A stretch of 42,023 nt of DNA. Source: Candidatus Aquidulcis sp. (GTDB lineage: Bacteria > Chloroflexota > Anaerolineae > UBA4142). The position numbers and the translations under genes are program-made. Shown in pieces: positions 7,210 to 10,689 of this stretch. The DNA lies in NCBI GenBank assembly GCA_020723345.1, contig DYJA01000059.1, positions 1 to 42,023 of the forward strand. The letters run 5' to 3'. The notes under the pieces were generated by a model that saw only the letters and a list, made by a program, of their open reading frames with translations, had not been told where the DNA came from and made no database searches. The first letter of the stretch is position 1, and each line of letters opens with the position of its first letter.

Positions 7210-7251
7210 AAACGACTCGCACCGGGTATCAATCCGGTGCGAGTCGTTTTT
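7210..7251. terminator. Perfect bidirectional terminator overlapping the lipB stop
   Basis: AAACGACTCGCACCGG (7210-7225) pairs perfectly over 16 bp with CCGGTGCGAGTCGTTT (7234-7249) around an 8-base loop. A T run follows on the plus strand; the minus-strand run is shorter. It lies between convergent genes ending at 7195 (+) and 7229 (-). The lipB stop codon (7229-7231) is in the loop, so the last lipB codons form one stem arm. Confidence 0.85.
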
Positions 7252-7927
7252 CCAATTCCTCGCGCGTCACCTCGCGCAATTCGACATCGAACACCTCTGC
7301 AAAGCGCGCCGCCACGCGTTCGCGCGCCGCGCGCATTTCGATCGGCTGGTTCAGCACGCGCGCGATTGAAGTCACCGCCTTGTCGCGGATTCCGCACGGC
7401 ACGATCAGATCGAAATGCGCGAGATTCGGAGCGACGTTCAACGCGAAACCGTGATACGTGATCCACTGCTCGATCCGCGCGCCGATTTGAACGATCTTCG
7501 CCTCGCCGCCCGGCGCGTCGAGCCACACCCCGATCAACTTGTCGATCCGCTTGCCGCGAATTCCAAAATCGCCCAGCGCGCGCAGCAGCATTTCCTCCAT
7601 CGACCGAACGAACCAGCCGACATCCATTCGAAAATTATGCAAGTCGAGAATCGGATAGCCGACGAGTTGTCCGGGGCCATGATACGTCACGTCGCCGCCG
7701 CGCTCGACGCGGAAAATCTCGATGCCGAGTTGTTGCAGCGCGTCGCGCGATGCCAGAATGTTCGATTCGACCGCGTTGCGCCCGAGCGTGAACACCGGCG
7801 GATGTTCGAGCAGCAGCAGTACGTCGTTCAACGCGCCGCGCTTGCGCGCTTCCACAATGCGATGTTGCAGCGCGAGCGCGTGCGCGTACGGAACCGTATC
7901 GAGATTGACGAGCCAAACCTTGTTCAT
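7229..7927 (-). CDS. lipB: Octanoyltransferase (lipoate biosynthesis)
   Basis: 232 residues from ATG 7927. Moves octanoyl from acyl carrier protein to lipoyl domains via an acyl-enzyme in the cytoplasm, the first step of endogenous lipoate synthesis. Family marks: LLLEHPPVFTLGRNA, RGGDVTYHGPGQLVGYPI (77-93), the catalytic Lys144 in AKIVQIGARI, TYHGFALNV, and catalytic Cys178 in IVPCGI. A start at 7972 would add 15 residues coded by the hairpin repeat just upstream, so 7927 is preferred, although no good ribosome site is seen. The gene follows the UGA-containing peroxiredoxin on the same strand, separated by a strong hairpin. No lipA is in the window. Confidence 0.93.
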   Translation of the reverse strand: MNKVWLVNLDTVPYAHALALQHRIVEARKRGALNDVLLLLEHPPVFTLGRNAVESNILASRDALQQLGIEIFRVERGGDVTYHGPGQLVGYPILDLHNFRMDVGWFVRSMEEMLLRALGDFGIRGKRIDKLIGVWLDAPGGEAKIVQIGARIEQWITYHGFALNVAPNLAHFDLIVPCGIRDKAVTSIARVLNQPIEMRAARERVAARFAEVFDVELREVTREELEKRLAPD

Positions 7928-7937
7928 TTTCGATTTT

Positions 7938-8007
7938 CGATTGCCGATTTTCGATTTGAAATTCCGCAACACGCCATCGAAAATCAGAAATCGAAAATCG
8001 GCAATCG
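7938..8007. repeat. Long inverted repeat between peroxiredoxin and lipB
   Basis: Arms CGATTGCCGATTTTCGATTT (7938-7957) and its exact complement (7988-8007) form a 20-bp stem around a 30-base loop. The arms consist of GATTTTCGATT units. It may terminate or attenuate transcription from the peroxiredoxin into lipB. Reading into it accounts for the extra N-terminus that an upstream lipB start would give. Confidence 0.75.
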
Positions 8008-8015
8008 CGGGAAAT

Positions 8016-8504
8016 CTATTTCAATTTTCGCAACTCGGCGAACAATTCCCCATTGTCCGGCATTACTCCGCTTTCGTACACTTTGATCCAGCGAAGGATG
8101 CCTTGTTTGTCCACGACGAAAATCGCGCGGTCGGATCGCCCCAGTTTTTCGTTAAAGATGCCGTACTGCTGCGCGACCGCACCGTGGGGCCAAAAATCTG
8201 ACACGAGCGGGTACGAAATGCCGCCGAGTGATTTGCCCCATCCTTGCTTTGATTGAACCGGATCACAACTGATAGCCAGAACCTGGCTATGCGTTCCCTC
8301 GAACTCAGCGCGCTGCGCTTCGTACGAAGGAATCTGCTTGTCTCAGATCGCCGTGAACGCGAACGGGTGAAACGCCAGCACGACGTTCTGGCGACCGCGA
8401 TAGTCGCTCAACTTGACATCCAGCCGCTGAATGTCCGGTTTGGTAATCACGCCGGGCAGTGTGAAATCCGGCGCGGTATCTCCGACTTGAAATGGATTTG
8501 CCAT
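8016..8504 (-). CDS. Peroxiredoxin with in-frame UGA at the peroxidatic Cys; probable selenoprotein
   Basis: An AhpC/TSA-family peroxiredoxin of 162 residues if TGA at 8345-8343 is read through. ATG 8504 follows AAGGAGG at 5 bases. It begins [20 protein letters not shown], then [19 protein letters not shown], then TGA (codon 54), then [49 protein letters not shown] and [12 protein letters not shown], and stops at TAG 8018-8016. The universal PxxxTxxC motif reads P47-F-A-F-T51-A-I-UGA, so the stop is exactly at the peroxide-reducing Cys; the conserved Arg of SDRAIF remains. No other lesion interrupts the frame. Sec at this position is known in bacterial peroxiredoxins; a nonsense mutation or sequencing error is the alternative. 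A GU-containing hairpin lies just downstream. It should reduce peroxides in the cytoplasm. Confidence 0.75.
8318..8329 (-). promoter_or_regulatory. Candidate bacterial SECIS apical hairpin
   Basis: In the peroxiredoxin mRNA, CUUC-GUAC-GAAG begins 13 bases after the UGA, and its loop starts with GU 17 bases after the UGA. Bacterial SECIS elements lie in the coding region just downstream of the UGA and carry a GU in the apical loop, so position and loop fit. The visible stem is only 4-5 bp and I could not find a clear lower helix by eye; support is limited. Confidence 0.35.
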
Positions 8505-8518
8505 TTTTTCCTCCTTCA

Positions 8519-8583
8519 TCAGGTATTCAGTATTCAGTGTTCAGTATTCAGTCTGAATGCCGAATACTGGATACTGAATACTC
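8519..8583. repeat. GTATTCAGTATTCAG imperfect inverted repeat
   Basis: Tandem GTATTCA/GTGTTCA units (8522-8551) face GAATACTGGATACTGAATAC (8563-8582), able to fold into a long imperfect hairpin. It fills the gap between the MetE C-half-like gene, which ends at 8585, and the peroxiredoxin ribosome site. Confidence 0.6.
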
Positions 8584-8584
8584 A

Positions 8585-9556
8585 TCACCGCAATCCCAAC
8601 TCGCGCTTCACCTCGCGCGTCGCGCGCACGACCAATTCCAACTTGGCTTGCGCCTCCGCGACCGTGCGCGTTTTCAGACCGCAATCGGGATCGACAAAAA
8701 TTTTTTCTGGCGGAATCTGTTGCAGCGCGTGTTTGATGCCGGTCTTGACTTGCTCGATAGATTCCAAGCGATGGTTGTGCACATCCACCACACCCAGACC
8801 GATCTCTTTGGTGTACGGATGCGATTTGAACACGTCGAGCAAATCGTAATTCGAGTTTGCCATTTCGAGATCGAGTTGAGCGACCGGTAGATCGAGGATG
8901 CGTGGATAGATCGTCGTGAAATCGCCGTAACAAATGTGGCTGATCGTTTTCGCGCGCAATCCGCGCGTGACGGTTGCCATCGCCTCGATCAGCAGATCGA
9001 TTTCCTCCGGCACAACCGACGCGGCGGGTTCGTCGATCTGAATGTACTCCGCGCCCGCGCGTTCGAGGTCGCGCGCTTCGGCGTGGACGACGCGCGCGAG
9101 CGCGAGCGCGGCTTGGCGGCGCGAGCCGTAGTACTCGTCGAACGACCAGTCCATCAACGTGTACGGTCCCGTCAACATTCCTTTGACCGGTTTGCGCGTC
9201 AACGATTGCGCGTACTTCCACCATTCGACGGTCGTCGGTCCCTGGCGCGCGACCTTGCCGACGATGATTGGCTTGTGATAATAGCGATTGCCGTACGCGC
9301 GGACGAGTCCGCTGATCGCAAAGCCGCGCCACTCTTCGGCAAAGTATTCGACCATGTCGCCGCGATACTGCTCGCCGTCCACGAGAATATCGAGACCGAT
9401 ACGTTCTTGAAATTCGATCCACTCGCGGGTCGCGCGTCTCTCCAACGCGAGCAACTCCGCGCGTGCAATTCGCTTTTTGCGATATTGATTGCGCGCTTGC
9501 ATCAAATAGTCGGGCTTTGGGTACGAGCCGACCGCCGTCGTCAACAAACTTGGCAT
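8585..9556 (-). CDS. Cobalamin-independent methionine synthase, catalytic (MetE C-half-like) protein
   Basis: 323 residues from ATG 9556, where MetE similarity begins (MPSLLTTAVGSYPKP). MetE transfers a methyl group to homocysteine; its catalytic zinc site is in the C-terminal barrel. All four zinc ligands are recognisable: His207 and Cys209 (ISHICYGDF), Glu231 (LDLEMANSN) and Cys292 (VDPDCGLKTR). Homocysteine-binding IDEPA is at 174-178, and GPYTLMDW is conserved. Full-length MetE has about 750 residues with two homologous barrels; here only one is present. A MetE N-half-like gene lies immediately upstream, ending 10 bases before this ATG, so the two may make a split MetE. The methyl donor (folate or a corrinoid protein) is undetermined. 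Confidence 0.88.
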   Translation of the reverse strand: MPSLLTTAVGSYPKPDYLMQARNQYRKKRIARAELLALERRATREWIEFQERIGLDILVDGEQYRGDMVEYFAEEWRGFAISGLVRAYGNRYYHKPIIVGKVARQGPTTVEWWKYAQSLTRKPVKGMLTGPYTLMDWSFDEYYGSRRQAALALARVVHAEARDLERAGAEYIQIDEPAASVVPEEIDLLIEAMATVTRGLRAKTISHICYGDFTTIYPRILDLPVAQLDLEMANSNYDLLDVFKSHPYTKEIGLGVVDVHNHRLESIEQVKTGIKHALQQIPPEKIFVDPDCGLKTRTVAEAQAKLELVVRATREVKRELGLR

Positions 9557-9566
9557 TTCTATTTCC

Positions 9567-10631
9567 CTACTTGCGTGATCTTTCGTGTTCTTTCGCGGCT
9601 TTTCGCGTTTTTCGTGTTGCGTGCTGCGTGTTCCGTTTCTCGGCTTGCGCGCTTGTTCGCGGTTTTCGCGTTCCAAACTCCCTCGCCGCCGCAACCAGCT
9701 GCGCCAATTTTTCCTGCGCGCGCTCGCGCGGCAAAAATTCCAAGCCGCACGTCGGATTCACGTACACCCGGTCGAGCGGAACGACGCGCGCGATTTGCGC
9801 GAACGCGCGGCGCAACTCGGCGCGCGTTTCGAGTTTCGTGTTGCGCGCGTCGACGATGCCAAAGCCGAGTTCTTTGGTGAACGGCGCGGTCTTGATCACA
9901 TCCCAATTCCGCGCGCCCTGCACGAAATCCAAACCGATCACCGCGAACGGCAACGCGAGAATTTGCGGATAAATGCCGCCGACATCGCCAAAGTACGTGT
10001 ACAGCGCGAGTTTCGCGGTCAAGCCGTTCGTCAATCGCCGCATCGCTTGTTCGAACAGCGCCCAGTCTTGTTTGCGCCGCAGAATTGCCGGCTCGTCGAA
10101 TTGGATGAACGTCGCGTCCGCGCGTTCGAGCGCGCGCGCTTCTTGATTCAGCGCGTCCGCGAGCGCGAACACAAATTCGTCCAGCGTCGGATAGTACTTG
10201 TTCTCGGACAAGCGCGCGAGCGTGTACGGGCCGGGCAGCGCGGGCTTGACCGGCTTGGACGAGTATTGCGCCGCGAATTCATAATCGCACACGGTGATCG
10301 GCTCAACCCATTCGACCGCGCCTTCGCAAATCGGCTGGCGGTAGTACGTGTTCGAATCGAAATAGCGAATCAATCCGCCGAGGCGCAAGCCGCGCAGTCG
10401 GCGCGCGAGGTACGTCTGCTCGTCTTCCCAGCGAATCTTGCCGTCGGTGATCAGATCGAGTCCGGCGGCGATCTGTTCGGCGATCACTTCACGCGTCACT
10501 TGATCTTCGGTACGCTGCAAATCGTCGCGCGTGATTTTGCCCGCGTCCACATTGGCAATCGCCTGGCGCAGTTTCGCCGGGCGCGGCAGGTTCGGTATTT
10601 TCGGATAGTTGCCTACAACTGTCGTGATCAA
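9567..10631 (-). CDS. MetE N-terminal-half-like barrel protein lacking the zinc His/Cys
   Basis: 354 residues. The TTG at 10631 is chosen because AGGAGAG lies 5 bases upstream and family similarity starts with ITTVVGNYPK; an ATG at 10676 would run through repeat hairpins. It is homologous to the catalytic paralogue downstream (GPYTLARL, FIQFDEPAILRR, NPTCGLEFL), but the HxC zinc pair is replaced by Y211-T-Y213 (LYTYFGDVGG) and the Glu by Asp235; Cys295 is kept. YTYF at this place is typical of the non-catalytic N-terminal barrel of MetE. It likely contributes folate binding or structure. The last 30 or so residues (RKPRTSAQAEKRNTQHATRK) are coded by a tandem repeat. It has its own promoter at 10728-10756. 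Confidence 0.8.
   Translation of the reverse strand: MITTVVGNYPKIPNLPRPAKLRQAIANVDAGKITRDDLQRTEDQVTREVIAEQIAAGLDLITDGKIRWEDEQTYLARRLRGLRLGGLIRYFDSNTYYRQPICEGAVEWVEPITVCDYEFAAQYSSKPVKPALPGPYTLARLSENKYYPTLDEFVFALADALNQEARALERADATFIQFDEPAILRRKQDWALFEQAMRRLTNGLTAKLALYTYFGDVGGIYPQILALPFAVIGLDFVQGARNWDVIKTAPFTKELGFGIVDARNTKLETRAELRRAFAQIARVVPLDRVYVNPTCGLEFLPRERAQEKLAQLVAAAREFGTRKPRTSAQAEKRNTQHATRKTRKAAKEHERSRK
9577..9670. repeat. TTTCGCGTTC-type repeat forming the 3' end of the MetE N-half gene
   Basis: Degenerate units such as CTTTCGTGTTCTTTCGCGGC and CGTGTTGCGTGCTGCGTGTT run through the gene's 3' end and stop. They encode a basic tail absent from family members I know. The same 10-base unit occurs inside the gene at 15146-16912 (bases 16451-16502), and GCGTGTTGCGTGTTGCGT occurs at 16934-16951. 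Confidence 0.6.
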
Positions 10632-10651
10632 AGTTCTCTCCTGAAATGGTG

Positions 10652-10689
10652 GGGCAAATTTCCAATTTGCCCGCAAGTTGGAAACTTGC
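10652..10689. repeat. Two adjacent small hairpins in the MetE N-half leader
   Basis: GGGCAAATT (10652-10660) pairs with AATTTGCCC (10664-10672), and GCAAGTT (10673-10679) pairs with AACTTGC (10683-10689), each with a 3-base loop. They abut, in the 5' leader of the minus-strand gene. They resemble the GACAAGTTTT hairpin at 36851 and the GACAAATTT hairpin at 40662. Confidence 0.7.

Follow-up and report, generated by a model that had tools for sequence, protein, structure and literature searches.

A probable AhpE-type peroxiredoxin with selenocysteine at the peroxidatic position in a lineage of Anaerolineae (Chloroflexota)

The window analysed here, i.e., the whole stretch of 42,023 nucleotides of contig DYJA01000059.1 (Candidatus Aquidulcis sp.), carries on its minus strand an open reading frame of 162 codons, which runs from the ATG at 8504 to the TAG at 8018–8016 and contains a single internal stop, a TGA at 8345–8343 (codon 54) found in the context PFAFTAI-UGA-D (Table 1). 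Without recoding, the frame breaks into pieces of 58 and 62 amino acids, the latter being the fragment mentioned in the first-pass annotation, which had also taken the frame for a peroxiredoxin interrupted exactly at its peroxidatic cysteine. Both statements hold: the readthrough product matches PF00578 (AhpC-TSA) at 6e-30 and AhpE of Mycobacterium tuberculosis at 1e-34, and it is the peroxidatic Cys of AhpE that aligns to the UGA. An AlphaFold2 model computed from 16 sequences (pLDDT 87, pTM 0.86) is weakest in the active-site stretch (residues 51–60, pLDDT about 51), and its first PDB matches are AhpE structures (TM 0.84–0.85). The protein thus combines the AhpC/TSA fold, the PxxxTxx(C/U) motif and the active-site Arg of AhpE-type enzymes.

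Table 1. Features of the peroxiredoxin locus (coordinates within the window).
Feature	Position	Strand	Basis
lipB (octanoyltransferase), next gene	7229..7972	-	neighbour conserved at 16/16 loci
AhpE-type peroxiredoxin gene, probable selenoprotein, 162 codons via UGA, stop TAG	8016..8504	-	frame, profile, orthologues, model
Cys80 codon, possible resolving thiol	8265..8267	-	conserved in 16/17 aligned orthologues
Putative bacterial SECIS stem-loop	8294..8332	-	covariation, recoding controls, bSECIS constraints
In-frame UGA, codon 54, peroxidatic residue, probably read as Sec	8343..8345	-	frame, alignment, orthologues, dN/dS
Shine-Dalgarno-like AAGGAGG	8510..8516	-	just 5' of ATG 8504

Downstream of the gene, lipB is found on the same strand, no more than about 0.6 kb away, in each of the 16 relatives whose flanks are longer, an adjacency that may reflect shared transcription only. 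No other conserved operon partner was observed among these relatives (GH20, acetyltransferase, solute-binding and ABC parts vary), so that no pathway can be read from the remaining neighbours. Directly upstream (8585–10676, minus strand) lie two tandem diverged genes resembling cobalamin-independent methionine synthases, which are both upstream in only one of the 16 relatives (L058). The gene is flanked by palindromic intergenic repeats (7927–8012 and 8517–8587) made of CGATTTTCGATT-like and TATTCAGTATTC units. The second of these draws false miRNA matches from Rfam, and the scan of the gene itself returned chance matches only, most of them between the intergenic palindrome and miRNA models of eukaryotes.

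Orthologues were recovered from two families of one order, 18 including the window's own (one partial), the others being 61–85% identical to the window protein. All 18 have UGA at codon 54 and none has a second stop, while 298 genomes drawn from the class yielded no Cys orthologue of the clade. In the phylogenetic tree, the 17 full-length sequences form one clade (100/100 support) composed of Sec proteins only. Thr51 and Arg126 are conserved among the orthologues, as is Pro47 with one exception (L027), and Cys80 is kept in 16 of the 17 clade members.

To the 3' side of the UGA, a stem-loop is predicted whose lower stem pairs 8332–8325 with 8301–8294 and whose apical stem pairs 8319–8315 with 8311–8307 around an AGC loop (8314–8312) located 28 nt after the UGA. 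Its eight-pair stem (nt 11–18 with 42–49 after the UGA; alignment columns 14–21 with 45–52) was examined in an ungapped comparison of 54 nt from the UGA onward, covering the 18 orthologues and 12 related Sec-clade sequences. The pairs are formed in 80% of the cells, and 20 cells are doubly changed, whereas shuffles give 5.9 and slid controls no more than 11. Moreover, 6.9 of the 8 pairs are formed, compared with 4.2 in 500 controls in which the peptides were left unchanged and recoded with the codons used by the clade, none of which scored as high (0/500). In a scan of the gene, the folding signal is strongest directly downstream of the UGA (z -8.2), and the stem is not kept in the seven Cys homologues examined. 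The published bSECIS model expects a loop of 3–9 nt with a G in its first two positions, 16–37 nt from the UGA, and a minimum free energy of -7.5 kcal/mol or lower (PMC13188914); the stem-loop of the window, with its AGC loop, its distance of 28 nt and its -21.1 kcal/mol, lies within these bounds. Over the clade, the loop is 27–29 nt from the UGA in 18/18 members, but the G is kept in only seven, and it is also seven that agree with the model on every point, which indicates either that this clade follows the loop rule less strictly or that the predicted loops are inexact. The RNAalifold consensus for the Sec sequences of both clades is weak (-0.36 kcal/mol, with three stem pairs retained), perhaps due to diverged apical parts. 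Judging from these sequence comparisons, the longer stem-loop is likely the SECIS. The first-pass annotation had instead proposed a mini-hairpin at 8318–8329 for this role; the palindrome is indeed there (CUUCGUACGAAG), but it shows no covariation, is paired in 70% of the cells, i.e., below its own shuffles, and takes up bases of the conserved stem, so that this candidate was rejected in favour of the longer one.

The source genome (6.3 Mb assembly, 95.5% complete) encodes the whole selenocysteine machinery: selA (2.9e-145), selB (9.1e-108), selD (1.8e-106) and selC, a tRNA-Sec with a UCA anticodon (76 bits), all four being located on contigs other than that of the peroxiredoxin. Its selD has an in-frame UGA of its own, in the motif CAGU, where SelD selenoproteins usually have their Sec. 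Among the 60 genomes searched, selA was found in 51 and a tRNA-Sec above the cut-off in 55; for the 18 genomes bearing the gene, the figures are 15 and 16, respectively, and only one of them (78% complete) is devoid of both.

Altogether, the gene that appears broken by a stop almost certainly encodes an intact peroxide-destroying enzyme with Sec at its catalytic site. We give a probability of about 0.96 to its being a functional selenoprotein gene in which UGA codon 54 takes the place of the peroxidatic Cys in an AhpE-like peroxiredoxin, a reading drawn from comparative evidence. The UGA falls where homologues have Cys, and it is conserved with constraint on both sides. Such a selenoprotein had been suspected in the first-pass annotation, and the suspicion is strongly supported both by the sel genes of the genome and by relatives that keep the UGA without any other lesion. 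Among the alternatives, it is very unlikely that recoding is regulated, with the UGA doubling as a selenium-dependent stop, such that selenium scarcity would yield a short N-terminal product and little full-length enzyme: this behaviour is inherent to any UGA-Sec gene, and the peroxiredoxin-like genes without UGA that the source genome also has could cover for the loss, yet the 53-residue product would be without active site and has no evident function. Less probable still is a decaying pseudogene, in which the Cys codon mutated and the gene is being lost. A single change from TGC or TGT to TGA would suffice at codon 54; against this, the UGA is fixed in 18 species, which argues that it did not arise by chance, there is neither a frameshift nor a second stop, the median pairwise dN/dS is as low downstream of the UGA (0.165) as upstream (0.169), and the RNA stem is under selection. 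Genome-wide reassignment of UGA (e.g., to Trp) or its non-specific suppression would account for a UGA read as sense in this gene, but can be practically discarded, since UGA terminates other genes (e.g., the upstream methionine-synthase gene and several orthologues), homologues have Cys at the site and never Trp, and a true tRNA-Sec is present along with SelA, SelB and SelD. Finally, a sequencing or assembly error at 8343–8345 has a negligible probability because the same UGA occurs in independent assemblies of 17 other species.

For the selenoprotein, we infer the following as to how selenium enters the protein, what peroxide it acts on and what reduces it. SelB carrying Sec-tRNA-Sec would bind the stem-loop, leading to the insertion of Sec at the UGA. 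The selenolate of Sec54, activated by Pro47, Thr51 and Arg126, would then attack the hydroperoxide and become a selenenic acid, to be reduced by an external thiol or redoxin, or first by Cys80, which, from its conservation, may act as an internal (resolving) thiol. By analogy, the reductant is most likely a glutaredoxin-like partner, considering that mycothiol and mycoredoxin-1 serve as reductants of the 1-Cys AhpE (PMC4360819) and that a related Sec clade, with a paralogue in the source genome, has a fused glutaredoxin. That the enzyme belongs to a subfamily of selenoperoxidases linked to lipoate metabolism, in which Sec54 would be resolved by Cys80 and reduced via dihydrolipoyl groups, is suggested by the presence of lipB downstream in all 16 relatives, but seems unlikely; we know of no Sec-peroxiredoxin with a dihydrolipoyl electron path.

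Standard annotation misses or truncates the gene, and probably does so as well for its orthologues and for three other kinds of UGA peroxiredoxins in Anaerolineae, which are common uncultured bacteria of sediments and groundwater. The peroxide defence of these organisms seems to lean on selenium, which alters how their oxygen tolerance is to be read. Moreover, the clade represents a natural SECIS alignment, featuring a covarying stem and an apical loop that departs from the published rule, so that recognition by SelB becomes testable. No paper on Sec-peroxiredoxins of Chloroflexi or Anaerolineae was found in the literature searched, and the gene adds a sound new case to a type of enzyme already known, from a group whose selenium proteins are hardly described.

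The closest solved relative is AhpE of M. tuberculosis (Rv2238c; PDB 1xvw, 4x0x, 5c04), at about 41% identity. Both proteins share the segment SDFWPHGAV, whereas the peroxidatic residue is Cys in AhpE and Sec (UGA) in the window protein, which further differs by extra residues inserted in the GVITKPD region (near residues 18–26) and by a conserved Cys80 at the position of a Val in AhpE. The family of Sec-peroxiredoxins with TxxU is well established (PMC13188914, PMC1794560, PMC1088965), which makes the window clade a new lineage-specific member. PrxU of Eubacterium acidaminophilum and others likewise have Sec in PxxxTxxU and a SECIS after the UGA, but the window clade belongs to another peroxiredoxin subfamily, which was encountered here only in two families of a single Chloroflexota order. 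The PrxU equivalog (NF040737) was rejected for the window protein (68.3 bits versus a curated cut-off of 270), and no NCBIfam model covers the clade above cut-off.

Within the class, further peroxiredoxins with UGA include an AhpC-like type with FYPGDFTFVU (L076–L080, of which L076 reads FYPADFTFVU) and a Prx-like type that has UxxC (L081–L083; e.g., GFAUPHC), in which the UGA precedes the Cys by three codons. In one family (f11), AhpE-like peroxiredoxins have Cys in one genus (L085–L088) and Sec in another (L089), on different branches of the tree. A type of Sec-peroxiredoxin fused to glutaredoxin (clade B), with the motif AWTPVU and a UGA, is widespread in the class, and the source genome holds one as its second Sec-peroxiredoxin (G000 contig C16:12251–12694, L067; also L068:110–856). 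Compared with the window clade, clade B bears an additional glutaredoxin domain at the C-terminus, which contains CxxC, and is devoid of the GVITKP insertion and of Cys80, while its Sec occupies the same site and the stem-loop after its UGA is related to that of the window clade.
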